Assembly: GCF_000296775.1 (NCBI RefSeq)
Contig: NZ_AJLE01000010.1
Location: 186,001-250,000, forward strand
From: Sulfurovum sp. AR
GTDB lineage: Bacteria > Campylobacterota > Campylobacteria > Campylobacterales > Sulfurovaceae
DNA length: 64,000 nt
Direction: 5' to 3'
The stretch's first letter is position 1. The number at the start of each line of letters is the position of its first letter. Position numbers and translations under genes: made by a program. The notes under the pieces were generated by a model. It was not told the origin of the DNA. It saw only the letters and a list, made by a program, of their open reading frames with translations, and ran no database searches. Positions 11,003 to 34,268 of this stretch are shown one piece after another.

Positions 11003-11051
11003 CCGAAATGATCTTTAAAATTTTATAAAATAGGGAGGGGTAGAAACAAGA

Positions 11052-11068
11052 ACAAGGAAAAACCTTGT
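11052..11068 (-). terminator. Hairpin downstream of bcp
   Basis: Stem ACAAGG / CCTTGT with a 5-base loop, 12 bases past the bcp stop and followed on the minus strand by TCTTGTTTC. A modest terminator. Confidence 0.5.
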
Positions 11069-11079
11069 CCCAAGAGATA

Positions 11080-11550
11080 TTAAGCGTTTTGAAGCTCTTG
11101 AAGTTTAGCCTTTACAGCATCCACATGTTCTTTGACTTTCACTTTTGTCCAAGTCGCAGCTACTTTGCCGTCAGGATCTATGATGAAAGTAGAACGTACC
11201 ACACCCATATACTCTTTACCCATGAACTTTTTAAGTTGCCAGATTCCAAAAAGATTACAAAGTTCTTTCTCTTCATCTGCAAGTAGTGTGATCTTTAAGT
11301 CTTTTTTCTCTATGAAGTTTCTGTGTTTTTTAGGAGAATCCGGGCTTACCCCTAAAACAATCGCATCCAAATCGGTAAAATCCGGAAGTGCTGCCGTGAA
11401 ATCACAGGCTTCTGTTGTACATCCAGGCGTATTGTCTTTTGGATAAAAATAGAGTACGATCCACTTTCCTTTAATGTCTCTCAAACAGATCTCCTCTTCA
11501 TCCTGGTTGGGTAAACAAAAATCCGGTACTTGTGTGCCTACTTCTAACAT
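11080..11550 (-). CDS. bcp: Thioredoxin-dependent thiol peroxidase (BCP/PrxQ-type peroxiredoxin)
   Basis: Reduces hydrogen peroxide and organic peroxides in the cytoplasm with electrons from thioredoxin (trxA and trxB are elsewhere in this window). 156 residues. The peroxidatic cysteine is C44 in NTPGCTTEACDF and the resolving cysteine C49 is five residues on, the atypical 2-Cys PrxQ arrangement. The STFIIDPDGKVAATW strand is also typical. Ends upstream of rpsB and is divergent from a small ORF at 11674. Confidence 0.95.
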   Translation of the reverse strand: MLEVGTQVPDFCLPNQDEEEICLRDIKGKWIVLYFYPKDNTPGCTTEACDFTAALPDFTDLDAIVLGVSPDSPKKHRNFIEKKDLKITLLADEEKELCNLFGIWQLKKFMGKEYMGVVRSTFIIDPDGKVAATWTKVKVKEHVDAVKAKLQELQNA

Positions 11551-11616
11551 AGCTGTATCCTTTATAATTTCTTTTTGGGTAGTATAACAAATAAATGTAA
11601 AAAACTCTTGCCAAAG

Positions 11617-11654
11617 GCAAAGCTTCAGTGAGAGGAATTTTTAAGTAGCTTTGC
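11617..11654 (+). promoter_or_regulatory. Inverted repeat upstream of the 69-residue ORF
   Basis: Perfect 8-bp arms GCAAAGCT (11617-11624) and AGCTTTGC (11647-11654) separated by 22 bases. It lies just before the AAAAGGAG ribosome site of the next gene, so it could fold in the 5' leader or serve as an operator in the divergent bcp/small-ORF region. Confidence 0.35.
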
Positions 11655-11673
11655 TTCTTCAAAAGGAGAAATT

Positions 11674-11883
11674 ATGGTAGACAAACAAACCAAAGAAGAA
11701 TTACTGGCAGATATAGAAAAACTGATCGCGTATGGCAGAGAAGAAACAACGATCAATCCAGACCTACTGGCATACCTGGAGATCAATGACCTGATCTCTA
11801 CAAAGAAAAAACTCCTCGAAAGAGTAGGCACACTCAGTGAAGAAGACAAAGAGTGGCTACAGCAGTTTAAAAAGTACGAATAA
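11674..11883 (+). CDS. Small helical protein, unknown function
   Basis: 69-residue, charged, cytoplasmic protein beginning MVDKQTKEELLADIEK. It has no signal peptide or membrane segment and no cysteine; it is predicted mostly alpha-helical, possibly a two-helix hairpin (residues 5-22 and 32-65). A strong AAAAGGAG ribosome site stands seven bases before the ATG, which is the main argument that it is real. Its stop abuts the end of the convergent protease gene with no gap. Confidence 0.7.
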   Translation: MVDKQTKEELLADIEKLIAYGREETTINPDLLAYLEINDLISTKKKLLERVGTLSEEDKEWLQQFKKYE

Positions 11884-13323
11884 CTACTCTCTTAAATCTA
11901 TCGACCTGTCAAACTCGATATTATATTTTTTAAGTATGGCACTCTGTTTTTCTTGTGCTTCCTTTCTGTCAATGATCACTTTAGCCCCATCATTATCCTC
12001 TAGAACGATATAGTCACTTTTTGCAGCTTTTACCTTTTCATAAAACTCTTTAAAGTCCTTAAAGGTCTCTCCATTCACCTTATCTATAGGCCACATGGCG
12101 AAATCATTGTCTCCCCTGCTCATATCTGAAGCCAATACTTTAAGTAGAACCACCACTTCGTTTTTATCTTCTTCCTGCCATTTACCTGCCAGATAACTTA
12201 ATGGTAAACGGTTTCGGTTTGTCGATACAATGAGGTTTCTGGTAAGTGGGGAAAAAACATACCCCCCATAAACAAAATACCTTGGCATGGTATCATAACG
12301 CGTTGTCTTGACCAGATACATGTCATCAGCGACGTACTTTAAAGGTACCTCAACCTGTATATGTTTCTTATCTCGGATGATATCGAGTTTTACTTTCTCA
12401 CCCATTTGATACGCATCTACAAAGTGCTGATAATGGGTAAACTCATGTTTTCTAAACTCTACCGTACCGTCGTTTTCAACATTATGCCCGTCCACTGCCG
12501 TTAAGATATCGCCCTCTTTGAGTAATCCTGAAAGAGAAGAATTATGTACCACTTTAACGATCAGTACTCCACTGGTATCATCATCAAGCCCATAATAGCG
12601 TCTAATGGCAGGATTTTCCAGTTTCTGTGTATTCAATCCCAGGTCTGAGAAGCCATCATACTTTCCATCTTTCATATCTTCTATGAAATGTTTGACGATA
12701 TTCACAGGTACGAGATATCCGATATTCTGAGACTTACTGATGAGCTGCATCACCACACCGACGATCTTTCCATTCGAGAGTGCCGGACCGCCGGAGTTTC
12801 CGGGATTCACAGCAGCATCAACCTGAATGGCTAAGAAAGACTCCCCGCTGTGCGCATAAGTATGATGTTCTATCCTTGAAACTACCCCGATCGTTGCAGA
12901 AAGCGTGCTTCCTCCCATAGGATATCCGTAGACAACAATTTTTTGTTCCACTTTTGGAAGTGAACCGAACGTCAGTGGTTTCACCCCTTCAAAAAATGCT
13001 TTCTCATCAACTTTCAAGAGTGCAAGGTCTGCTTGATGGGACACCGCATGGACTTTGGCAATATAGCGTTTACGCTGTCCATAACGCTGCACCTCTATAA
13101 AGGATTGATTGGCTACTACATGTGCATTTGTCAGAATATACCCATCTTCTATAATAGCACCAGAACCTGTACTGCTGCGTGTTGAACTGCTCCAGGGCTC
13201 CTGGTAGTTGGGTACTTTGGCCACAGTGTAGATCTTAACGATCGCTTCTTTGGTACCATTCAGCTGTTGTGCACTTGCAGCTAAAAAAAGTGTACTTAGC
13301 AACATTGTCCATAATATTCTCAT
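11884..13323 (-). CDS. Periplasmic trypsin-like serine protease with PDZ domain (DegP/HtrA-related)
   Basis: 479 residues with a cleavable signal peptide (LFLAASA-Q near residue 18). The S1C catalytic triad is complete: H68 in ILTNAHVV, D99 in HQADLALLKV, and S177 in NPGNSGGPA. A PDZ domain follows (about 215-320, DGHNVENDG), then a C-terminal region with a second PDZ-like fold ending around KVNGETFKDF. It is longer than, and diverges from, canonical DegP/DegQ, resembling the plant Deg-type proteases with non-canonical second halves. Probably periplasmic quality control. Start overlaps the end of the DUF523 gene by four bases. Confidence 0.9.
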   Translation of the reverse strand: MRILWTMLLSTLFLAASAQQLNGTKEAIVKIYTVAKVPNYQEPWSSSTRSSTGSGAIIEDGYILTNAHVVANQSFIEVQRYGQRKRYIAKVHAVSHQADLALLKVDEKAFFEGVKPLTFGSLPKVEQKIVVYGYPMGGSTLSATIGVVSRIEHHTYAHSGESFLAIQVDAAVNPGNSGGPALSNGKIVGVVMQLISKSQNIGYLVPVNIVKHFIEDMKDGKYDGFSDLGLNTQKLENPAIRRYYGLDDDTSGVLIVKVVHNSSLSGLLKEGDILTAVDGHNVENDGTVEFRKHEFTHYQHFVDAYQMGEKVKLDIIRDKKHIQVEVPLKYVADDMYLVKTTRYDTMPRYFVYGGYVFSPLTRNLIVSTNRNRLPLSYLAGKWQEEDKNEVVVLLKVLASDMSRGDNDFAMWPIDKVNGETFKDFKEFYEKVKAAKSDYIVLEDNDGAKVIIDRKEAQEKQSAILKKYNIEFDRSIDLRE

Positions 13324-23941: not shown

Positions 23942-24053
23942 TATGAATCCTTGAACTAAGTAAAATACTTAAGCAAATACTATCTATTATACAATGAAAA
24001 TACTTGGTTAAAAATTTTAGAAGATTTTATCTAAATATAGATATGAAAGAAGT

Positions 24054-24080
24054 TTTAAGAGAGGAAGACCCCCTCTTAAA
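24054..24080 (-). terminator. Hairpin after trxA
   Basis: Perfect 8-bp stem TTTAAGAG / CTCTTAAA with an 11-base loop, eight bases beyond the trxA stop; followed by ACTTCTTTC on the minus strand, so only weakly U-rich. Confidence 0.6.
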
Positions 24081-24088
24081 TGTATCAT

Positions 24089-24406
24089 TTAGAGTTGTGC
24101 GTTAAGTTTTTCAGCGAATGCGTCTTTAGAAGCTGCACCTACCATTTGGTCTACCAATTCACCGTCTTTAAAGAAAAGGATCGCTGGAATAGATCTGATA
24201 CCATATTTTACTGCGATATCTTGCTGCTCGTCTGTATTCACTTTACAGATAGTCGCTTTCCCTTCAAAATCTTCTGCAAGCTCTTCGATCACTGGAGCGA
24301 TCATTCTACAAGGTCCACACCATGGAGCCCAAAAATCTACCATTGTTACACCTTCAGCGATAGTCGCATCAAAATTTTCAGCTGTTAAATCTACATATTT
24401 TCCCAT
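24089..24406 (-). CDS. trxA: Thioredoxin
   Basis: Cytoplasmic dithiol reductant. 105 residues beginning MGKYVDLTAENFD with the active site FWAPWCGPCRM. The cis-Pro strand is IRSIPAILFF. An in-frame Met nine codons upstream lacks a ribosome site; AAAGGAAT stands correctly before the ATG at 24406. Confidence 0.96.
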   Translation of the reverse strand: MGKYVDLTAENFDATIAEGVTMVDFWAPWCGPCRMIAPVIEELAEDFEGKATICKVNTDEQQDIAVKYGIRSIPAILFFKDGELVDQMVGAASKDAFAEKLNAQL

Positions 24407-24535
24407 ATTTAATTCCTTTAAATTTGTATACAAATAGTATAACCTAATTTCTTATAAAAACTATTGTTATAGCTTATATTTTTTTAAATTATCTATCTTT
24501 TGTCCTAATTATATACAACTAGGATAAAACTTCTC

Positions 24536-25327
24536 TTATTCAACTTCTTCCAACATGATCTCTGGATATTGGGAAGAGCGTGATCCTTCTATGGCCATCG
24601 TCCTCTCCCCTTTGACCGTATAGACAAATGATATTTTAGCTTGATCTGTACTGTTCTTATTGGCTCTATGCAGCAGTAAAGAATGGAAGATGATCACATC
24701 GCCTTTTTTGAGTGGGGTAGAGACTTTTTTCGCTATCAGTTCGGCATTCTCTTGCGTATCTTCCCTAAAATACTCTTTTACATCAAACTGTTCAGGCTTG
24801 AATTGCATCAAATGGCTTCCAGGTATGAATTCAAGCACACCATTCTCACTGTACTCATCATCCAAAGCCAGCCATACACTCACCAGATTATTATCTGAAT
24901 AACGCCAATACCTTCTGTCCTGATGCCAAGCTGTTGCTCTGCTATAATGAGGCATTTTTGTCATGATAGAGTTATGATGGGCGGTCGTGATGACCACTCT
25001 GTCATCCAGTATCTGCTGTAAAACAGGACGGATATCGACATCTTCCATCCACTCTTTGAAAAGAATATCTCTCTCATACACCTGCCGTAACCTGCGGACG
25101 ATCATATGCGTTTCATTGGATCCACTGCTGTAATCCACCACCTCGGTACGATACTCTTTGGATCTCTCATCATACCCTATCTCTGTTTCAATCGGTTCAA
25201 TTTTATGTTCTAAATGTGCTTTGGCGACATCCAGTATCGCGTCACATTTTTCTTGGGGTAAAAAATTTCGTAAGACAATAAAACCATTTTGATGAAATTG
25301 TTGAAGCTGCACATTGGAGAGTCTCAT
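24536..25327 (-). CDS. Phytanoyl-CoA dioxygenase (PhyH) family protein
   Basis: 263 residues, non-haem Fe(II)/2-oxoglutarate oxygenase. It opens FHQNGFIVLRNFLPQE, a typical PhyH start. Fe ligands: HQD in TAWHQDRRYW and the distal His in LLLHRANKN; GVLEFIPGSHLMQF is the hallmark strand. The substrate is unknown; relatives act on lipids, ectoine or small metabolites. It is not homologous in detail to the P4H-like enzyme at 19228. Confidence 0.85.
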   Translation of the reverse strand: MRLSNVQLQQFHQNGFIVLRNFLPQEKCDAILDVAKAHLEHKIEPIETEIGYDERSKEYRTEVVDYSSGSNETHMIVRRLRQVYERDILFKEWMEDVDIRPVLQQILDDRVVITTAHHNSIMTKMPHYSRATAWHQDRRYWRYSDNNLVSVWLALDDEYSENGVLEFIPGSHLMQFKPEQFDVKEYFREDTQENAELIAKKVSTPLKKGDVIIFHSLLLHRANKNSTDQAKISFVYTVKGERTMAIEGSRSSQYPEIMLEEVE

Positions 25328-25357
25328 ATAGGTGCCTTTAAAGTATCATTGAGCAGA

Positions 25358-25702
25358 TTATAGCGTAACATTCTCTATAAATTCTACCTCATCATACCGA
25401 ATGATCAGTGCATCGATACTAAATGCACTGTCAATGTTTTTTGCTTTCATATAGTAATGTGCAGAGTTGATGATCTTTCGGAGTTTAGAAGGTGTCACAT
25501 TATAGACAGGATCAAACTCTGTTTTTCCGCTCTTCACGTCTATAAAATGCAAGCTATCATTACAACTGGCGATGATATCTATCTCACCAAGTTTTCTTGC
25601 GAAATAATTACGCTCCAAGATCATGAAACCTTTCTGTTCTAAAAAACGTGTGGCCAAGGTCTCGCTCTGATTACCGAATTTTTTAGGGTCTTCTCTTGTC
25701 AT
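25358..25702 (-). CDS. YraN/UPF0102 family nuclease-fold protein
   Basis: 114 residues (from ATG 25702). It has the restriction-endonuclease-like core of the YraN family: EGL-type start NQSETLATRFLEQKGF, then RNYFARKLGEIDIIA and HFIDVKSGK, the last two giving the E-x-D...D-x-K metal site. A GTG start six codons upstream is possible. The cellular role is not established; the family is often encoded near DNA or rRNA housekeeping genes. Confidence 0.85.
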   Translation of the reverse strand: MTREDPKKFGNQSETLATRFLEQKGFMILERNYFARKLGEIDIIASCNDSLHFIDVKSGKTEFDPVYNVTPSKLRKIINSAHYYMKAKNIDSAFSIDALIIRYDEVEFIENVTL

Positions 25703-25987
25703 GTTATAAAACCTTATCACTTGTTCGTCTGTGTTGCTTTAAATTTGATGATTAAGTATAGACCAAAAGAAAAAAGGGAAGAGAAAAGTATGTCATATTG
25801 ACATTCTTTTAGCAGAACTTTCTTGTTCTTACTCTCTGTAGGTGAAGTGAAAAAAGGTATAAAGTCCAAAAAAGAGATACAAAAAATAACTCTATTGGTA
25901 GAAAAAAGACAAATCAGATAAAATTTATCCTATTTAAAGCTATCTTTGATATAAGAGTGAATAAACAACATACTAAAGGACATAATC

Positions 25988-26335
25988 ATGACAAACAATG
26001 AAGTAACGTCTCAAAAAGAAGATAAAGCGTATGCTACCATATCCTTCACGGATACGGTAGCATTTAACTATACCTTACCCGGTGATAAAGAACCACAAAC
26101 CATAGAACATGAGCTAACCTTCATTTGGGAAGATACGATCGATAAGTTTATAGAAGAACATGGTACCGACAAACCTTACAAAGTACATACCTTTAAACGG
26201 GAAAGAGAACAAAAATTTTTCATAGAACAGATAGAAGGCAGAACGGATGACCTCATAGACGAGGTACAAGAAGAAATAGCCAACAAAATGAAGTTTGGCT
26301 TTGACTTTAGTGGACAACTACATAATGACGACTAA
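25988..26335 (+). CDS. Conserved-looking cytoplasmic protein, unknown
   Basis: 115 residues beginning MTNNEVTSQKEDKAYATISF. Acidic, no signal peptide, no membrane segment. The first half looks beta-rich (ATISFTDTVAFNYTL, ELTFIWED), the second alpha-helical and charged (EREQKFFIEQIEGRTDDLIDEVQEEIANKM). I recognise no family. AAAGGA precedes the ATG by eight bases. It stands alone: about 285 bases upstream hold no gene I can support, and a perfect palindrome follows the stop. Confidence 0.7.
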   Translation: MTNNEVTSQKEDKAYATISFTDTVAFNYTLPGDKEPQTIEHELTFIWEDTIDKFIEEHGTDKPYKVHTFKREREQKFFIEQIEGRTDDLIDEVQEEIANKMKFGFDFSGQLHNDD

Positions 26336-26340
26336 ATAAA

Positions 26341-26362
26341 AATTGTAGTGTACACTACAATT
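26341..26362. terminator. 22-bp perfect palindrome after the 115-residue gene
   Basis: AATTGTAGTGT directly repeated as ACACTACAATT. Six bases past the stop codon. It has no long T-run but is a plausible terminator stem or a dimeric protein site. Confidence 0.5.
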
Positions 26363-26412
26363 ATGGATTGCTTATTTGTTGTGTGCATCCTCATCAAGAC
26401 GATGGAGATGAG

Positions 26413-26449
26413 TTAAAACCTTATAAAGTTATATATTTTATAAGGTTTT
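26413..26449. repeat. 13-bp-stem hairpin at the left end of the accessory block
   Basis: Arms AAAACCTTATAAA (26415-26427) and TTTATAAGGTTTT (26437-26449), loop GTTATATAT. It lies ten bases beyond the 26460 stop and likely acts as a terminator. The first arm with two preceding bases, TTAAAACCTTATAAA, recurs exactly at 32039-32053. Confidence 0.6.
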
Positions 26450-26459
26450 GATAACTTCA

Positions 26460-27014
26460 TTATTTTGTACACTTTACATAGTTGGTTAATACATCTTCCC
26501 ATGCTTTGTCAGAATCAAAATTATTAACCAAAGCACTTTTTGACTGCTCCTCTAAAAAAGCACCCATACCATGCTGAATCATATAATTTGGATAATAGGC
26601 TGGTTTGCCTAATTCTTTTAATGCACTGCATATTGTATTTAGCTCACCATTGACTCTTTTTAGTGCTAATTGAAACTCATTCGTATCAGTTTCATTTAAA
26701 TTGCCTAAATAATTCATTCGTAAAACAGGAATTGCTTGATGTGCAGTCTGGTCTTTGACTCTATGTGCATCGAAACGCCCATATGCCAATGCAGCAAAAT
26801 AGAGTTCACCGGCTTTTTGATAATCTGATTTCTCTAGACACTTTGCAATACCAACAAAAATATCTGCAGGAGTGTTTGTATTACTAAGTTCTTTTACTTC
26901 AATACAATTAGTTGGGTATTTTGATTCTAAATTTCCTTTTGTCTCAATCTTATAAATTTCTGCATTTACAGTAACAATGCATAGTGTAGTAAATACGAAT
27001 AAGAATTTTTTCAT
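26460..27014 (-). CDS. Exported protein, unknown function
   Basis: 184 residues with a Sec signal peptide (MKKFLFVFTTLCIVTVNA-E). The mature protein is alpha-helical with pairs of cysteines (NCIEV, AKCLE, TICSA, VKCTK). Residues about 50-80 (DIFVGIAKCLEKSDYQKAGELYFAALAYGRFD) look like a single TPR or SEL1-like helix pair. Probably periplasmic; no specific family. AT-rich, like its neighbours. Confidence 0.7.
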   Translation of the reverse strand: MKKFLFVFTTLCIVTVNAEIYKIETKGNLESKYPTNCIEVKELSNTNTPADIFVGIAKCLEKSDYQKAGELYFAALAYGRFDAHRVKDQTAHQAIPVLRMNYLGNLNETDTNEFQLALKRVNGELNTICSALKELGKPAYYPNYMIQHGMGAFLEEQSKSALVNNFDSDKAWEDVLTNYVKCTK

Positions 27015-27077
27015 GTGTCATGCTCTCCTAAAGTTTTTATTGTAACTGTCATATTTCAGCGTAGAAATATAAATGAC

Positions 27078-27599
27078 TTAGAGAACTTCAACACTTTTAT
27101 TTAATGCAGGAAGCCACTCTATTGATATAAAAGGTTTACCATCCTTTTCTTTACACGTTTCTAAAGGTTTTATCGTCATTCTAGTTGCTTTATGACTATG
27201 TATGTTGCGTTTCTTGATTTCAACATCATACATATCATCTTCATAGACGGCATTCATGGAATATATGTAGTTACTCTTTGGTGTAACATATGCACCTAAT
27301 GTTATATTTTGTGATCCGGACAATAATGACACTGTCTTAAAATTAATTCGAAGATAATAGTGTTTATTATTCATAAGTGCAAACTTGTTTATCCCGTTCT
27401 GGAGTTTCACTTCCCCTTTCATCTTCTGATTACACGGTCCATCCAATTCATACACTTCTAAATATGTACTACTGTCAGCCTTGACATTCACGGTAAGATT
27501 TTTCTTGCCCTGCTGCTGATAAGCTCCTGGTGAAGAAGAGCAGCCATTCAGCAGTAGTACTACACTAGTGAGGGTATAAAATAATAATTTACGTAACAT
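27078..27599 (-). CDS. Lipoprotein, unknown function
   Basis: 173 residues from ATG 27599: basic MLRKLLFYT start, hydrophobic core, lipobox LNGC with lipid cysteine at about 20, then SSSPG. The rest is mainly beta-strand (NLTVNVKADSSTYLEVYEL, HYYLRINFKTVSLLSG), like a small beta-sandwich. An earlier in-frame Met would precede the signal sequence with an unlikely MPKYCTII stretch. It starts two bases after the stop of the upstream lipoprotein gene and lacks a clear ribosome site, so translation is probably coupled. Confidence 0.72.
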   Translation of the reverse strand: MLRKLLFYTLTSVVLLLNGCSSSPGAYQQQGKKNLTVNVKADSSTYLEVYELDGPCNQKMKGEVKLQNGINKFALMNNKHYYLRINFKTVSLLSGSQNITLGAYVTPKSNYIYSMNAVYEDDMYDVEIKKRNIHSHKATRMTIKPLETCKEKDGKPFISIEWLPALNKSVEVL

Positions 27600-27601
27600 A
27601 A

Positions 27602-28156
27602 TTATGGTGCAATATTTGGGCATGATCTAGATCCAGTTTTTGCCCAATTCTTTATAGCGTTAACAATATCTTCTTGAACCCCCATTAACATTGATCCGCG
27701 ATAAATATCAACTTGTGTTTTATTACCTTTATTATGTAAATCTACAACTGCAATAAAATAACCATCTTTGAAAGCCTCACCATAAATAGCAGATGTCATA
27801 CCTGATTGTAGACTATCTGAATCACCTTTTACTTCTAAAGTTGATAATGTACGGCCTCTTTTAAACTTTGTTTTATAGTACATGGTGTCCGTACTTGTTT
27901 GCATGTAGTATCCATTATGTGTTGTACTTGTATGTTTAAATGCTTTATTTAGACATTTATTCGAATTCCTTTGAAGTAAACTAGCAACTTTATAATATGG
28001 ACGATTGACAACAAAGCTATCTTTTTTGGTACTGAACATACCACTGCCTACTGAATCACGAACCTCTTGAGGAGTAGTCGGTGATGATGAACTTGCACAT
28101 CCACTAAAGATACCTGTTAGTAATAGAGCACTGGAGATTATTATAATTTTTTTCAT
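27602..28156 (-). CDS. Lipoprotein, unknown function
   Basis: 184 residues; signal peptide MKKIIIISSALLLTGI and lipobox FSGC (lipid cysteine at 19). The mature part has two further cysteines and a beta-rich centre (GYYMQTSTDTMYYKTKF, STLEVKGDSDS). No family recognised. First of a three-gene minus-strand run of exported proteins, divergent from the DUF2167 gene. Confidence 0.72.
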   Translation of the reverse strand: MKKIIIISSALLLTGIFSGCASSSSPTTPQEVRDSVGSGMFSTKKDSFVVNRPYYKVASLLQRNSNKCLNKAFKHTSTTHNGYYMQTSTDTMYYKTKFKRGRTLSTLEVKGDSDSLQSGMTSAIYGEAFKDGYFIAVVDLHNKGNKTQVDIYRGSMLMGVQEDIVNAIKNWAKTGSRSCPNIAP

Positions 28157-28232
28157 TAAACATCCTAAATTTTGAAGTTTAAGATTGTATCAAGGTTAAG
28201 ATTTAATTAAGCTTCTATATATCCTAATTTTA

Positions 28233-28238
28233 TATAAT
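28233..28238 (+). promoter_or_regulatory. Likely -10 box for the DUF2167 gene
   Basis: TATAAT in an AT-rich stretch, 35 bases before the ATG, followed by the strong purine-rich ribosome site AGAGGGAGAAGGG. Confidence 0.45.
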
Positions 28239-28273
28239 AACTTATATTAATATATAAAGAGGGAGAAGGGTAC

Positions 28274-29233
28274 ATGAAGTATTTTGGAGTAATTTTTACA
28301 TTCATTATGTTGTTTTCAAATCAACTGATGGCTGAAAATGAGACAAATTTAACGGCAGAGCAAGAGCAATATATTACTGAAGCTAACAAAATTTTGGATT
28401 CACTGAATCCTCAACAAGGTGAGATAAAATTACCTAATGGTGTGGCAACACTACAAGTGCCAGAAAACTTTTATTATCTTAGTCCGGAAGATACAGAAAC
28501 TGTGTTGGTAAAAATATGGGGGAACCCTCCTGGAGGAGAAAAAACACTGGGTATGATTTTCCCTACCAGGGTAACACCGTATGACAATACCGCTTGGGGT
28601 GTGACAGTTGAATATGTGGAAGATGGTTATGTCTCTGATGAGGATGCCGATAAAATAAATTATGATGAACTTCTCTCTGACATGAAAGAGAGTACTGCTA
28701 ATGCGAGTCAAGAACGTATAAAACAAGGGTATGATGCCATTAGCTTGATTGGATGGGCTGCTAAACCATACTACGATGAAAAAACACATAAGCTGCATTG
28801 GGCGAAAGAGATCAAGTTCGGTTCACAAGAGATCAATACGCTCAATTACAATATTCGAGTGTTAGGACGAAAAGGTGTTTTGGTCTTAAACTTTATTGCA
28901 GGTATGGATCAGCTGGATATGATAAATTCTAAAATTGATACAGTCTTGAAAATAGCAGACTTCAATGAGGGTTCACGCTATGCAGATTTCAACCCTGATA
29001 TCGATACGGTCGCAGCATATGGAATTGGTGCATTAGTTGCTGGTAAGGTTGCAGCAAAGGTCGGTATTTTAGCAACAATATTACTGTTTTTGAAAAAATT
29101 ATGGATTTTCCTTCTTATCGGTGCTGGTGCTTTTGTGAAGAAACTCTTTAGTCGTAAGAAAAATGATGAAATTATAGAAGAAACAGTAGTAAATGAGAAT
29201 ATAGATAAAGATGATACTGAGATTAAACAATAA
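28274..29233 (+). CDS. DUF2167 family membrane protein
   Basis: 319 residues: signal peptide ending LMA-E near 20, a long extracytoplasmic domain, two close membrane segments (about 244-265 and 272-292) and a Lys/Glu-rich cytoplasmic tail. Family landmarks: IKLPNGVATLQVPENFYYL, GMIFP, WGVTVEYVEDGYVSDEDA, and LIGWAAKPYYDEKTHKLHWAKE. The function of DUF2167 is not established; members are envelope proteins. Next gene is DUF2569 on the same strand. Confidence 0.85.
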   Translation: MKYFGVIFTFIMLFSNQLMAENETNLTAEQEQYITEANKILDSLNPQQGEIKLPNGVATLQVPENFYYLSPEDTETVLVKIWGNPPGGEKTLGMIFPTRVTPYDNTAWGVTVEYVEDGYVSDEDADKINYDELLSDMKESTANASQERIKQGYDAISLIGWAAKPYYDEKTHKLHWAKEIKFGSQEINTLNYNIRVLGRKGVLVLNFIAGMDQLDMINSKIDTVLKIADFNEGSRYADFNPDIDTVAAYGIGALVAGKVAAKVGILATILLFLKKLWIFLLIGAGAFVKKLFSRKKNDEIIEETVVNENIDKDDTEIKQ

Positions 29234-29344
29234 TTAGGATTCTTATGGCGTATATCTTAGATCAGAATAAAAAAAGACATAACAGATAAATAGCCTATAT
29301 AAGCTATGCGGTACAAATATAAAGAAACTTAACATGGGGAGAAC

Positions 29345-29842
29345 ATGAAAGATAAAGATAATTTAAAAGGCTTGGGTGGATGGTTGATACTGGTTGGTAT
29401 TGGGGTTGTAGTTGCCCCCATCAGATTAATATATGAATACGGTCCAATGTACTATTCTATCTTTACAGATGGATCATTTGAGGTATTGACAACTCCGGGT
29501 ACAGAAGCTTACAATTCACTCTGGGGTCCACTACTGATCGGTGAAGCACTTGGTAATACATTTTTAGTGCTTGCATCTATCTATCTTGTTTATCTATTTT
29601 TTACTAAACATTATCTATTCCCTAAGATTTATATTGCCATTATTCTATTCTCTCTTGTCTTTATCACTTTGGATGCATGGGTCGGTTCACTTGTTATTAC
29701 GGATGAACCTATGTTTGATCCAGCAACAACTAAAGAGTTCACACGAAGTTTAGTAGGAGCAGTAATATGGATTCCGTATATGCTTGTTTCTAAAAGAGTA
29801 AAAGCAACATTCATCGAGCATAAGCCTGAAAAAATACTTTGA
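29345..29842 (+). CDS. DUF2569 family membrane protein
   Basis: 165 residues with four membrane segments (about 12-32, 59-83, 95-118, 130-150). The LGGWLILVGIGVVVAPIR start is the family hallmark. Function unknown. It is 110 bases after the DUF2167 gene and is preceded by GGGGAG as ribosome site. Confidence 0.82.
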   Translation: MKDKDNLKGLGGWLILVGIGVVVAPIRLIYEYGPMYYSIFTDGSFEVLTTPGTEAYNSLWGPLLIGEALGNTFLVLASIYLVYLFFTKHYLFPKIYIAIILFSLVFITLDAWVGSLVITDEPMFDPATTKEFTRSLVGAVIWIPYMLVSKRVKATFIEHKPEKIL

Positions 29843-29886
29843 GTGCTATAAAGATCTTTCTGAGATATGTTTAAAAGAGTATATAG

Positions 29887-30381
29887 ATGAATATTGAATT
29901 AGTAAAAAAGATAGCATAAGAAAATCACTAAAATCTGCAACTATAGGTGTAATTCTAATCTATATTATATTTGTTATAGGGGCAGATAAGGAAGGCTTCA
30001 TATATTCTCTTGTGTGGGTTTTTACAGATCAATATAGAATTAATATTTTACTTCTTTGCCTATATTGTTGGAGGGAAAGCAGGATATGAAATTTTAATAG
30101 AAAAGAAACGTTGGTATAAACTCATTGGAGTCAAATATGCAATGATTGTACTGTTGATAACAGCATTCTTATTTGGATGGACTGGATATTTTCAGGAAGG
30201 ATTATCTGTACCTGAAATTTTTTCAGATGCATCACCTGAATTTATTGAAGCGTATAAAGCACAGCAAGAACCATTTTATGATTATGTGTTTAAATCATTC
30301 TTTTGGATAACACTTGCAGGAAGCATTCCTGCTGTTATTGTAGGTATGTTATTTGGAAGATCAATCAAAAAATCATTATAA
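29887..30381 (+). pseudogene. Frameshifted four-pass membrane protein
   Basis: Three consecutive reading frames together make one sensible protein. Frame one starts MNIELVKK at 29887 and hits a stop after IA. One extra A in the A-run near 29903-29908 would continue as DSIRKSLKSATIGVILIYIIFVIGA. That frame goes wrong after SLVWV; removing one T from the T-run near 30019-30023 enters the third frame, which runs to the stop at 30381 (YFFAYIVGGKAGYEI, then YAMIVLLITAFLFGW). Restored length is about 164 residues with four membrane segments. Both indels are in homopolymers, so phase variation or sequencing error are alternatives. A TTG start at 30010 could still give the last 123 residues. Confidence 0.55.
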
Positions 30382-30423
30382 ATCTATTTCAGGTTTTGAG
30401 TAGTTAGAAATAATAAGGTTACA

Positions 30424-31095
30424 ATGAAATATTTAGTATATATAGTTTTATTTTATAGTTCATATGCACCGGCTTTAGAAAGTATATGCTATGGCAGTAC
30501 ATCAAACGGTAGACTGGAAAATGGCGTACAACTTCCAAGTAAAGGGAATAACTTCGTAAGTTACAGTAAAACAGCAGAGATATTAGGCAGAACATATGTG
30601 CATTCAAAAGTAAAGGAGATTATATTAGCCTCATATAAATCTCTAGAAACAGAAATGCCTACAAAAGTTTATAAATATGCCGAAACAGGTTTTAAAGAAG
30701 GAGGTAAATTCTCTCCTCATAAAACACATCAAAATGGTTTATCAGTAGACTTCATGGTTCCTGTAGTGAATAATAAAGGTAAATCAGAACATCTGCCTAC
30801 ACACATATTCAATAAGTTTGGATATGCCATAGAGTTTGATAAAAAAGGTCACTACAAAGCGTACAGTATTGATTATGAAGCTATGGGAGCACATATTGTT
30901 AGCCTACATAAAAGTGTAAAAGAGAGAGGTGCAAAGATATGGAGAGTAATCTTTGATCCGGAACTACAACCTTACCTTTTTCGAACCAAATATGGAAAAT
31001 ATCTTAAAACACATATCAATTTCTCCAAGAAAAGATCTTGGGTAAGGCATGATGAACATTATCATGTTGATTTTATAGTGAAATGTCTTAAGTAG
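30424..31095 (+). CDS. MepA-like penicillin-insensitive murein endopeptidase
   Basis: LAS-family zinc metallopeptidase that cuts peptide cross-links in peptidoglycan. 223 residues with a signal peptide (MKYLVYIVLFYSSYAPA). Zinc motifs: H in SPHKTHQNGLSVDF (HxxxxxxxD type) and the HxH in RHDEHYHVDF near the C-terminus. Smaller and more divergent than E. coli MepA. In an AT-rich block of envelope genes. Confidence 0.82.
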   Translation: MKYLVYIVLFYSSYAPALESICYGSTSNGRLENGVQLPSKGNNFVSYSKTAEILGRTYVHSKVKEIILASYKSLETEMPTKVYKYAETGFKEGGKFSPHKTHQNGLSVDFMVPVVNNKGKSEHLPTHIFNKFGYAIEFDKKGHYKAYSIDYEAMGAHIVSLHKSVKERGAKIWRVIFDPELQPYLFRTKYGKYLKTHINFSKKRSWVRHDEHYHVDFIVKCLK

Positions 31096-31103
31096 TAAAT
31101 CAT

Positions 31104-31439
31104 ATGGAAACAAAGAAATTACGTATATACTTGACATATATTACAGTATCACTGTATTTATTTTTACTGCTTCCCACGTTTTACGTGGTAACCCATACAT
31201 CAATTAATAATGAACAACAAAAGTCAGTTTTAAACTCAAACCACTATATGCATTCCCACAAACATCGTGGGAACGAAGAAAAAACACAACGACAAATAGA
31301 AAGACTGTCTCAAAGGTATAAAGAAGTAAAAGGGCAAATTAAAAAAAGAATCTTAACAACATATACTACGTATAGTTTTCCCACAACTCTATTTGGTCCA
31401 CACATAATTTGTAGTATTCTTTTGTTTTGTTTTAAATAA
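31104..31439 (+). CDS. Small membrane protein, unknown
   Basis: 111 residues: one N-terminal membrane segment (about 9-31), a His-rich stretch YMHSHKHRGNEE, then a charged helix (KTQRQIERLSQRYKEVKGQIKKRI) and a hydrophobic end. It starts eight bases after the MepA-like stop without a clear ribosome site. Its 3' end overlaps the convergent acetyltransferase remnant by about 50 bases, so the C-terminus may be abnormal. Confidence 0.45.
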   Translation: METKKLRIYLTYITVSLYLFLLLPTFYVVTHTSINNEQQKSVLNSNHYMHSHKHRGNEEKTQRQIERLSQRYKEVKGQIKKRILTTYTTYSFPTTLFGPHIICSILLFCFK

Positions 31440-31895
31440 ATCTTCTTCAAAATTATTTTTTTCATAAAATATATTCAAACTTTTGCTAATTGATAGCAAT
31501 GTTATAGTATTAAATTCTTTTTTTAAACAGTTTATTAAATATGTCCCCAAACCACTCTTCTGATAATATGCATCTATTGATATTTGATTTATATAAATCT
31601 TTTTTAAAAATTCGTCTTTTATCTTATAGTCTATAAATCCAACTCTATCGATATCTATATATAAATCCAATCTACTATTATTTTTAGTTTGATGTTTATA
31701 CGCTGTTGTTATATTCTTTGGGTTTTTATTTTCATTAATTATGTTAAATGACTTCTGCTTTGTTGTATTGATATCTATTGTAATAGGGGCTTCCTTAGGG
31801 TGAGCACATCCGTTATGGATAAAAGTGCATCGTGAAAAAAGCCTAACAAAAATCTGTTTAATGTTAATTTGAGTAGATCTAAGCTTTAAATATGG
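31389..31895 (-). pseudogene. GNAT acetyltransferase remnant lacking a start codon
   Basis: The frame is open for 168 codons from 31895 to the stop at 31389 but has no ATG or GTG; the only usual alternative is TTG at 31670, which gives 93 residues. The C-terminal half carries a GNAT acetyl-CoA signature (QISIDAYYQKSGLGTYLINCLKKEF) and the late strand LSISKSLNIFYEKNNFEE. The N-terminal half (APITIDINTTKQKSFN onward) is protein-like. I read it as a gene that lost its 5' end by recombination; TTG initiation is the alternative. Confidence 0.5.
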
Positions 31896-32038
31896 TTATA
31901 GAATTTTTAAAGGATTATAAAAACGAAGTCAAATACAGATCGAATATTTGAAATTACATTCAGTATATCATAATAATAAGTATTAATGATAAAAAGGACA
32001 TGACTGCATCAAAAGTTTCGAAATAATGTGATAGGAAA

Positions 32039-32075
32039 TTAAAACCTTATAAAATGTTCTATATAAGGAAGTTTT
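32039..32075. repeat. Second copy of TTAAAACCTTATAAA in a hairpin
   Basis: Bases 32039-32053 repeat 26413-26427 exactly. Downstream TATAAG-GAA-GTTTT can pair with AAAAC-CTTATA, leaving a three-base bulge, so the structure imitates the hairpin at the other end of the accessory block. Confidence 0.5.
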
Positions 32076-32131
32076 ATAATAAAATTGTTAAAAAAATATA
32101 ATGGAGTCAAAGAAGAATAGGCGAGTCTCTA

Positions 32132-32150
32132 AGGTCGCAAATCGCGACCT
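32132..32150 (-). terminator. Hairpin after the formate dehydrogenase-like gene
   Basis: Stem AGGTCGC / GCGACCT with loop AAATC, 21 bases beyond the stop. GC-rich in an AT-rich setting; no T-run follows, so it may rely on another mechanism. Confidence 0.5.
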
Positions 32151-32171
32151 CAAAATCTAACCCAAAACCCT

Positions 32172-34268
32172 CTACGCACTTACAGGAATAATGTCGACCT
32201 GAATCGATTTAAATGCAGCTGTCATGATCAGTTCATCACTCTTATCACCGAAAATCTTATTGAGTTTTGAATCCACATGGTGAAACGTGGTATAGAGTGT
32301 TTTAGGACGTACTTTATCTGTGAATTTTACCTTTAATGGATTTGTTTGACCATACTCGGTTTTGAGGATCACCCTCTCCGTTGGGAAATCTGCACTATCG
32401 CTTTCATGTACTAAAAGAATATCCTCTGTATGTTTTTTCATGAGGTTCTCTGTATATTTGGTTTGCGCGGAGTTATTATAGTGGGCCATGATTCTTCCAG
32501 TCGTCAAGTGGTAGCCCTTAAGTGCTTTATTTAGAATCTCTTCGATCATCCCTGAGAGTTTATACCCATGGTATCTGAATGCTCCGATACCATCTTTGGT
32601 TCTAAAATCTTCTCTATGCAGTACCGGTGTACCACCCTCTTCAGTGATCGGCCAGGAAATTCCCTGCTTTTCATTGGCTCTAAGCATCTCATAAGAGGCA
32701 CCACTGAATCTATTTGTTGCAGTTTTTCTCACATCATTCCAGATATCTTCAGAGGTTTCAAAACCGAACTCCCCTCCCATTTTCTCATCAAGAAGTTTGA
32801 TCACTTCCCAGTCATCCGGAAGATCAGAGTGTACCAGTGGCGTTGAGAGGTGGACTTTTCTCATGGCATTGATATAGATACCTGTTTTTTCATAGGCTGA
32901 TTTAACACCCACTACGATGTCTGCACGTTCTGCAATATCTGTCATGAACAGCTCTTGTACAAAGATAAGCTCGAGGTTTTCAAATGCTTTTGTGATCTTA
33001 TTGATATTCGGATGAATATGCGTGAGATCTTCACCGATATTCAACACACCTTTAATGGTTCCGTCAAGCATGCCATCCACCAACTGAGGTGTCATAAGTC
33101 CCACCTCTTTTGGTGCAGTGTAGTCCGGTGCATAGTAAGGAAGCATACCCATATCACAGGCACCTTGTACGTTCGTTTGACCTCTTAAAGGCATTACACC
33201 CGCACCATCTTTACCGATGTTCCCGGTCATCAGTGCCAAATGGACGATAGCCATGACCGCGTAAGAGCCATCGACATGTTCAGTGATCCCGAGTCCCCAT
33301 AAAATAAGAGATTTCTTCGTTGCATACTCACGGGCGATCTCCGGGAGCATATCTGCCAGATACTCATACCCTTCCACTTCTCTGAAAAATTCAGGATTCG
33401 CATAAGGATCATTTAAAATGTTCTCTTTAAAGTGTTCAAAGTTCTTTGTTCTGTTCTTGATAAAATCTTTATGGTACAGCTCTTCAGTGATGATCGTATA
33501 TGCCAACATATTGAGTACAAGCAGATTCGCTTCATGTGGTGTGACTGCTTTATATTTTGAGAATTTATGCAATTTGATCTCACGTACATCAAAACATGCG
33601 ATAGGTGTACCCTTTTGTGCCGCTTTGATCATACGGTTACCGACAATCGGGTGTGCTTCAGTCGTATTGGAACCCATTACGATCATAAATTCTGTTTTGT
33701 AAATATCATCAAACGGGTTACTTGCAGCCCCCTCACCGATGGTCAGTCTCATTCCCTTGAGTGATGGAGAGTGACAGACTCTGGCACAGTTGTCTACGTG
33801 TGGAGAGTTCAGTGTATAACGCGTGAACTTTTGGAAATAGTAAGCTGATTCGCATGAAGTTCTAGCCCCTCCAAGCGAACAGACAGATTTTTCACCATAT
33901 TGTGATTGAATATCTTTGAGCTTCATTGCCCCTGCAGTGGTAGCAGCATCCAGATCAGTCTCATACCAGGTATCATCAAGATCAGTAAGCGAACTGGAAA
34001 TCGCTTCTTTAATCTCAGGGTTCTTCTCTAAAAAGCTTTTGCGGATACGTGGCGTTCTTAATCTCTCTTTTGCATCAACAAAGTCATATCCATGTGTCCC
34101 TTTAATACAAAGTTTTCCTTCAGATGTAGCGCCATCCGGATGTGCAAAAATCTTCTTGATTTTATTCTCTTTTGTGTCAACCTCAGCTGCAATATCACAA
34201 CCCACACCACAATACGCACAAACACTGTCTATTATTTCAAAATTGTTATCAGCTTTTTTTGTCATCAT
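32172..34268 (-). CDS. Formate dehydrogenase-like molybdopterin oxidoreductase (Cys type)
   Basis: 698 residues of the DMSO-reductase/FdhF superfamily. A [4Fe-4S] site is formed by C17, C20, C24 and C54 (VCAYCGVGC, KLC). At the selenocysteine position of FdhF-type enzymes (ARVUHxP) this protein has C165 in NCARVCHSPS, followed by the conserved His. RGQTNVQGACDMG and the C-terminal molybdopterin dinucleotide domain (TTGRIMAHYN) are present. There is no extra ferredoxin domain and no TAT signal, so it should be cytoplasmic with a partner not encoded here. Formate is the likeliest substrate because the divergent gene is an OFA transporter. MoaA and MoeA in the window make its cofactor. Confidence 0.85.
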   Translation of the reverse strand: MMTKKADNNFEIIDSVCAYCGVGCDIAAEVDTKENKIKKIFAHPDGATSEGKLCIKGTHGYDFVDAKERLRTPRIRKSFLEKNPEIKEAISSSLTDLDDTWYETDLDAATTAGAMKLKDIQSQYGEKSVCSLGGARTSCESAYYFQKFTRYTLNSPHVDNCARVCHSPSLKGMRLTIGEGAASNPFDDIYKTEFMIVMGSNTTEAHPIVGNRMIKAAQKGTPIACFDVREIKLHKFSKYKAVTPHEANLLVLNMLAYTIITEELYHKDFIKNRTKNFEHFKENILNDPYANPEFFREVEGYEYLADMLPEIAREYATKKSLILWGLGITEHVDGSYAVMAIVHLALMTGNIGKDGAGVMPLRGQTNVQGACDMGMLPYYAPDYTAPKEVGLMTPQLVDGMLDGTIKGVLNIGEDLTHIHPNINKITKAFENLELIFVQELFMTDIAERADIVVGVKSAYEKTGIYINAMRKVHLSTPLVHSDLPDDWEVIKLLDEKMGGEFGFETSEDIWNDVRKTATNRFSGASYEMLRANEKQGISWPITEEGGTPVLHREDFRTKDGIGAFRYHGYKLSGMIEEILNKALKGYHLTTGRIMAHYNNSAQTKYTENLMKKHTEDILLVHESDSADFPTERVILKTEYGQTNPLKVKFTDKVRPKTLYTTFHHVDSKLNKIFGDKSDELIMTAAFKSIQVDIIPVSA

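Follow-up and report, generated by a model that had tools for sequence, protein, structure and literature searches.

How did a block of about 5.6 kb, rich in A and T and filled with envelope-type genes, come to lie between two copies of one short word on a chromosome of Sulfurovum sp. AR? The block occupies positions 26413–32075 of a 64,000-nucleotide stretch of contig NZ_AJLE01000010.1 (positions 186,001 to 250,000), which was analysed whole and is called the window here. An earlier note, made from the sequence alone, saw in the block an acquired segment bounded by hairpins, whose ends may have been made by recombination between repeats. We consider it quite probable that the block represents the cargo carried by a single island of a gene-cassette system that resembles integrons and uses a short tyrosine recombinase.

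The block and its ends

The 15-base word TTAAAACCTTATAAA occurs exactly at 26413 and 32039 and has no other exact copy in the window. At up to two mismatches, five copies are present where 0.54 are expected, and none of 100 shuffles reached five, which puts the word above chance. The whole genome contains four exact copies, and 26 at up to one mismatch compared with 6 for a reversed control. The left copy forms one of the 13-bp arms (26415–26427/26437–26449) of a perfect inverted repeat whose centre is 9 bases long. The right copy likewise serves as an arm, there of an imperfect repeat (32041–32075, four mismatches to the arm pattern), and we read both of the proposed hairpins as probable recombination core sites. 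The visible AT-richness was borne out: guanine-plus-cytosine (GC) content is 0.322 over 26450–32040, the minimum among 465 equal-length segments elsewhere in the 64 kb being 0.383 (0.32 for the block versus 0.41 elsewhere). So was the predominance of exported or membrane products, since eight of the nine open reading frames (ORFs) have that appearance, judged by eye from signal-like or hydrophobic starts and from Pfam families (DUF2167, DUF2569 and an M74-type peptidase). We found no transfer RNA gene as an anchor in the 64-kb window and no convincing eroded site within the block.

The core sites share one plan, with two inverted arms of 12–13 bp around an asymmetric spacer of 9–11 bases, a layout like that of loxP or dif. 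Their spacers fall into two classes, A (AGTTATATATT) and X (TCTAACATATT), and a further site, Y, has a degenerate right arm overlapping the ribosome-binding stretch ahead of the recombinase gene. The left end of the island is an A-type site (26415–26449, plus strand), a 35-bp inverted repeat with perfect arms (AAAACCTTATAAA/GTTATATAT/TTTATAAGGTTTT). The right end is a Y-type site with a degenerate right arm (32041–32075, plus strand), and homology to genomes G098 and G090 resumes rightwards from exactly 32041. It runs into an apparent recombinase-leader stub (32054–32098, plus strand), with no surviving start ATG and with the remainder of the gene absent. This stub is a probable remnant: it can be aligned with the corresponding stub of G098, which resembles the start of an intact recombinase gene. 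What bounds the block is thus two distinct components of a single site-specific system, and on this point we depart from the earlier picture of recombination between repeats.

Distribution and arrangement of the sites

Genomes were searched for two 12-bp arms around 11 bases at up to three mismatches, with the reversed pattern as control. Sulfurovum sp. AR (G000) has 30 sites in about 13 clusters, several of them consisting of a single site; a second genome of the species (G138) has 32, and eight further genomes have 28, 33, 19, 21, 14, 9, 16 and 10, the nine comparison genomes having been picked for the presence of strict sites. The control returned 0 sites in all 10 genomes. At up to two mismatches, sites are present in 33 of 78 genomes of the genus, many of which are incomplete, and in 16 of the 40 of good quality. 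Strict palindromes were found in 15 of 175 genomes of the family, every one of them in the window's genus. The site ends are conserved as AAAACCTTATAA and TTATAAGGTTTT (AAAACC...GGTTTT). Some A sites are preceded, 37 bases upstream, by an X-like half and so become 72-nt composite sites, attC-like in plan; several of these can form an imperfect hairpin whose outer stem measures 12 bp, and 2 of 5 did not fully fold so. An Rfam scan of two arrays gave no match. By eye, a TATACTCTTAATACT-like stretch recurs about 20 bp from the right arm of A sites (for example L013:9830, L109:5200); it has the look of a promoter for cassettes, or else of a site for accessory binding.

The arrangement of sites was counted over 23 loci, some of which share sites (L013/L095), with L122 and L126 omitted as same-species copies of L119 and L113. 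Neighbouring sites have the same orientation in 47 of 51 pairs, that is, they stand head-to-tail. Of the four exceptions, three concern the recombinase unit, which is flanked by inverted X sites in all three loci that carry it, and the fourth (L127:5159) has an odd spacer. Where the classes are mixed, A precedes X in 21 of 21 pairs. Usually one to three ORFs lie between sites, and more in some islands (ORFs of at least 60 amino acids, taken mechanically). Among 27 distinct X sites, Y follows after 81 bp in 17 and after 80, 73 and 37 bp in one each, and seven have no Y. Three Y sites precede an intact recombinase gene and one a partial gene. At L013:8060–8110 and at other Y sites, the right arm overlaps the Shine–Dalgarno stretch and the start of the recombinase gene, so that binding of the recombinase to Y could repress its own production. 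A test of whether outermost A sites are better palindromes than inner ones gave no support for such a difference (Mann–Whitney P 0.21).

The same locus in other genomes of the genus

The locus was compared in 26 genomes of the genus, 20 with both flanks on one contig and six more. The flanking genes, which we take to be yraN and a molybdopterin oxidoreductase gene, abut in eight (−10 to +1 bp), are separated by 49–154 bp in six and enclose inserts of 721–6478 bp in twelve. Across the genus the content of the locus thus varies, and the block is not a constant feature of it; together with the switch of homology at both ends, the eight genomes lacking an insert speak for an acquired segment with ends made by recombination. 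The simpler expectation, that recombination at one word would leave a single copy in empty genomes, is not supported, since the 14 genomes with zero or small gap show no site at the locus.

Among the twelve genomes with inserts, eight have an A site on the yraN side, and seven of these eight have X or Y at the opposite end; the inserts of G111, G121, G091 and G068 contain no site at up to four mismatches. Different cassettes lie between like ends in other genomes of the genus. In G066, G064 and G074, an identical chromosomal half-site is joined to three different cassettes, and G098 has one different gene between A and X-Y. G098 holds the left cargo of the window (26415–28277, 91%) at another locus, where agreement runs from the site rightwards and the left side is unrelated. 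In G090, the two lipoprotein-like genes of the block form one cassette between two A sites (87.3% over 1090 bp).

Position of the crossover

Such joins allow the exchange to be placed within the site. Our junction analysis covered 106 distinct oriented sites, with nine groups sharing the right side and eight sharing the left. In the shared-right groups, variants fall at site positions 1–14; the exceptions, a single group in each case, are positions 19 and 24, seen in cross-species pairs, and positions 30, 31 and 34, seen in X sites. For the shared-left groups the range is 22–35, the exceptions being 6 and 12 in one cross-species pair. Since variants change sides in this way, the crossover lies within positions 15–21, seven central bases that read TTATATA in A sites. 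Seven bases is about the size expected of a tyrosine-recombinase overlap. The left neighbour of one cassette start takes six different forms, counted over seven rows of which two represent a single place in both genomes of the species. Judged by these comparisons, exchange at the sites and their junctions is site-specific.

Movement of cassettes within the species

Fifteen stretches of Sulfurovum sp. AR were compared with 15 of G138, picked for holding sites. Thirteen of the 21 breakpoints lie within 60 bp of a Sulfurovum sp. AR site (14 if the sites of either genome are counted), against 3.3% of the compared bases. The two genomes are collinear over L113, the window block and almost the whole of L119, and L110, L114, L118 and L120 have no counterpart among the G138 stretches fetched. 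Two adjacent cassettes of the C10 island (L013:9857–11003 and 11003–12181) are found in a different island of G138, in swapped order and at 93% and 99% identity, the 99% cassette reaching the end of its contig there. The island that hosts them (L127) is the counterpart of the C2 island of Sulfurovum sp. AR (L108). On the side of a gene that is presumably metE, the flank is 99.8% identical between the two genomes, yet it meets one end of the recombinase unit in Sulfurovum sp. AR and the opposite end in G138; the units themselves differ by 6–9%, these flanks by 0.2%.

The short tyrosine recombinase

Sulfurovum sp. AR has an intact recombinase gene (G000:C10; L013:7507–8097, minus strand) for a protein of about 190 amino acids, which matches PF00589 at 55 bits; the catalytic Arg, Lys, His-x-x-Arg, His and Tyr are invariant. 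A structure model of a relative (L138, 195 amino acids, predicted local distance difference test score 85) resembles the catalytic domains of XerA, XerH, Cre and VchIntIA. It superposes on XerA with Z 17.8 and a root-mean-square deviation of 2.8 over 175 residues, and aligns with the catalytic part only, from residue 100 of XerA and residue 126 of Cre. Going by this model, the recombinase is a catalytic domain only, without a core-binding domain. Simple tyrosine recombinases are described as a core-binding plus a catalytic domain (PMC8138268), a definition outside which the short recombinase falls. The comparison with VchIntIA (Z 15.5) makes kinship with integron integrases compatible with the fold. 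Against the integron integrase model TIGR02249, the recombinase scores 27.9 bits and the best protein of the genome 60.9, the cut-off being 265.

Relatives were found at 18 loci among named genomes, 17 of them titled Campylobacterota (Arcobacteraceae, Nitratiruptor, Sulfurimonas, Sulfuricurvum, Sulfurovum and others). For 17 relatives (16 of the 18 loci, L147 and L149 being excluded for want of a gene start, plus one viral contig), we looked for paired arms ahead of the gene. In 13 of 17, a second arm copy stands 80–83 bp after the first, upstream of the gene; several of these 13 are closely akin, so the independent cases are fewer. The paired copies differ by at most one mismatch in seven and at 3–4 of 12 positions in six. 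The pair was not found for L133, L144 and L151 and is not clean for L146. The arm sequence itself varies by system (AAAACACTATAA, AACCTTATAAA, AAACGACATAAA, ACTACTATAAAA). The recombinase thus appears tied to a paired site upstream of its gene; its role as catalyst of the exchange, and the chemistry, are inferred.

Further features of these loci were noted. At L134:4335–4460, L138:7816–7940 and L148:2747–2880, the arm occurs a third time, 124 bp on from its first copy, in the interval that separates Y from the gene. In L143 (a Campylobacteraceae metagenome-assembled genome, HF-Din13), an early in-frame stop interrupts the recombinase gene. G138 has a second intact recombinase unit (L096, G138:C3:268000–282000), again flanked by X sites in inverted orientation; to one side of it several A sites follow one another. 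Viral contigs yielded one relative (36%), with no site pair found. Two Arcobacter plasmids carry relatives at 39%, and three further plasmids carry weaker pieces; in the one plasmid read, the DNA upstream of the relative contained no recognisable site pair. One 39% relative (L182, Arcobacter plasmid CP134847.1, 74951–91526) lies amid HipA-, HEPN/Toprim-, SMEK- and DUF2326-type genes, a defence-like cargo.

Cargo and neighbouring genes

The cargo of the window island begins with a 184-amino-acid ORF with a signal-like start and no Pfam match (26460–27014, minus strand), which in G098 stands at another locus, from the A site onward. Two lipoprotein-like ORFs follow, of 181 (27078–27623, minus) and 184 amino acids (27602–28156, minus), which make up the G090 cassette mentioned above. 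Next come membrane proteins of the Pfam families DUF2167 (28274–29233, plus; 334 bits; an 87% copy elsewhere in G098) and DUF2569 (29345–29842, plus; 135 bits), a membrane-like ORF of 123 amino acids, possibly 5′-truncated (30010–30381, plus), an M74-type murein endopeptidase-like ORF (30424–31095, plus; 36.7 bits, cut-off 25; an 80% copy elsewhere in G098), an ORF of 111 amino acids (31104–31439, plus) and a GNAT acetyltransferase fragment recognised by Pfam (31389–31670, minus), with a related stretch in G136. Broken-ORF remains are visible at 29842–30010 and 31389–31850, among them the possibly 5′-truncated membrane gene and the GNAT fragment.

On the chromosomal side, the left anchor is yraN (UPF0102; 25358–25720, minus) and the right anchor the molybdopterin oxidoreductase gene (32172–34268, minus), by eye fdhA; apart from names backed by a Pfam family, these and metE are assignments made by eye. 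The interval from yraN to the A site contains a 115-amino-acid ORF (25988–26335, plus) that adjoins the A site in G098 too and lies elsewhere in other relatives.

The cargo of the window is of envelope type. Three separate units of the C10 region (L013:6459–13273) contain immunity-type genes (Imm44, SUKH_5 and Tdi1-C), possibly a bank of such lone genes, and the region also encodes an ankyrin protein. Some of ten other cassette or unit proteins match RNA methyltransferase, hydrolase or Sel1-repeat families, five are without family, and PADLOC gave weak E2-type matches in one of the ten.

Discussion

In the mechanism that we favour, the repeated hairpin would be a two-arm core site for a tyrosine recombinase of about 190 amino acids consisting of the catalytic domain only. 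Comparison shows islands in which sites run head-to-tail, A first and X (mostly then Y) last, with cassettes of mostly one to three genes between them. It also shows that cassette content varies among genomes, with breaks in or near the sites, and that the crossover falls in the seven central bases. The joining would be done by the recombinase whose gene starts at Y. Sites in direct repeat would release a cassette as a circle, the circle could re-enter at another A or X site, and the inverted X sites around the recombinase unit would let that unit flip. The recombinase gene would later have been lost from most islands, that of the window included.

Several observations weigh against this reading. 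In several site-rich genomes, among them G098, G066, G090 and G091, no match to the recombinase appears at E 1e-8; conversely G068, which belongs to the same genus, carries a 43% relative of the recombinase and no site at up to two mismatches; another recombinase could therefore be acting. Eight of the 21 breakpoints lie more than 60 bp from any Sulfurovum sp. AR site, and breaks remote from sites occur in L111, L115, L116 and L119. Only 7 of 14 other Y sites (80–81 bp) keep a recognisable gene start (ATGAAA-type) or later codons, by eye, so that the lost recombinase gene rests on short stubs. Arrays were seen only in the window's genus: a genome-wide search with a single arm pattern, made in six further genomes with the recombinase (one of them, L144, from the window's genus), gave only recombinase-side sites, four in three of the six, and one reversed-control hit in one of them. 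The window block itself is collinear in both genomes of the species, has no recognisable internal site and lacks X, and may be an old, fixed island.

The nearest alternative is that the sites are substrates of the host's chromosomal Xer recombinases and that the short recombinase is a mere passenger. The dif modules of Acinetobacter provide a precedent, Xer-like genes are present in the genome (weak integron-model matches at C2 and C5), and arrays occur in genomes in which the short recombinase was not detected. We nevertheless judge it unlikely, since paired sites with system-specific arms stand directly ahead of the short recombinase gene in 13 of 17 relatives, the X-Y composite at island ends runs into the start region of that gene, and the sites are in direct and not inverted orientation. 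A plainer origin, as terminators or as palindromic repeats like miniature inverted-repeat transposable elements, with the differences between genomes due to homologous recombination, would suit AT-rich, intergenic, multi-copy palindromes. The word is indeed widespread; its position and orientation, however, are those of a recombination site and not of a terminator arm. A scan of 24000–33000 gave five terminator-like sites versus 4.1 expected, none at the two words, a weak result because its settings (at least three G-C pairs, loop of 3–8) cannot catch AT-rich palindromes of this type. The asymmetric spacer, the uniform orientation and the absence of sites at up to two mismatches from 45 of 78 genomes of the genus (many incomplete) tell against repeats of this kind. 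So does the linkage of half-site variants, left arm with left neighbour and right arm with right neighbour, which insertion of a whole unit cannot produce. We regard this origin as very improbable.

It is also conceivable that we are looking at a divergent classical integron, its islands being CALINs (attC arrays without an integrase). The outer boxes of attC sites follow the consensus RYYYAAC/GTTRRRY, and the site ends here, judged by these boxes, are AAAACC...GGTTTT instead. Both the short recombinase and the best integrase score of the genome fall far below the integrase cut-off, and the recombinase gene reads along the array and not away from it. In favour are the composite 72-nt sites with their attC-like plan and, in several cases, their imperfect hairpins with a 12-bp outer stem (incomplete in 2 of 5), as well as units with lone immunity genes, such as large integrons contain. 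Classical integrons have been reported in Campylobacterota (PMC8618304), and CALINs are listed for Sulfurovum sp. NBC37-1, where IntegronFinder gave two (PMC10295459); these may be the same arrays half-seen. On balance, a classical integron seems quite improbable, and the system, integron-like in working, is not an integron by the two defining features tested (integrase and attC boxes).

We lean towards the view that this is a cassette-capture system evolved apart from integrons and dif modules, with a Campylobacterota family of catalytic-domain-only recombinases, each having its own X-Y pair, and with about a dozen chromosomal site clusters seeded per Sulfurovum genome, some with lone immunity genes. 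Our literature search found no paper joining Sulfurovum, a tyrosine recombinase and cassettes. Integrons are the textbook case of single-gene cassettes stockpiled by tyrosine recombination. If our reading is true, a system that parallels them with simpler components (near-perfect palindromes as sites and a recombinase not much more than half as large) would show which integron features are essential, would be a source of compact recombinases with several natural site specificities, and would account for part of the gene-content variation in a widespread genus.

Like integrons, the system has arrays of small genes split by recombination sites of uniform orientation, some of them composite imperfect palindromes; a tyrosine recombinase gene adjoining a special composite site (X-Y, an attI analogue by position only); and arrays also in genomes without the recombinase. 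Unlike integrons, its recombinase has no core-binding domain and scores below the IntI cut-off, its site boxes differ, simple palindromes also serve as sites, the start of the recombinase gene overlaps a site and the gene reads with the array, and a promoter-like TATACTCTTAATACT stands, by eye, beside many individual sites. The XerC/XerD-dependent dif modules of Acinetobacter plasmids are likewise bounded by short two-arm tyrosine-recombinase sites and shuffled among relatives. They differ in that here a recombinase gene lies beside the sites, the islands are chromosomal, the sites are direct (inverted in dif modules) and arms and spacer measure 12–13/9–11/12–13 as opposed to 11/6/11. FimB/FimE and shufflon-type inversion match our system in recombinase size, in the lack of a core-binding domain (FimB has 200 amino acids, with 20% identity over 143 columns) and in a recombinase unit between inverted X sites whose flank is joined to opposite ends in two genomes; the main outcome here, however, is gain, loss and relocation of cassettes and not a fixed switch. 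Finally, Cre-loxP and Xer-dif have the same site layout and catalytic-domain fold, from which the present system departs by the missing core-binding domain and by its arrays of many sites.

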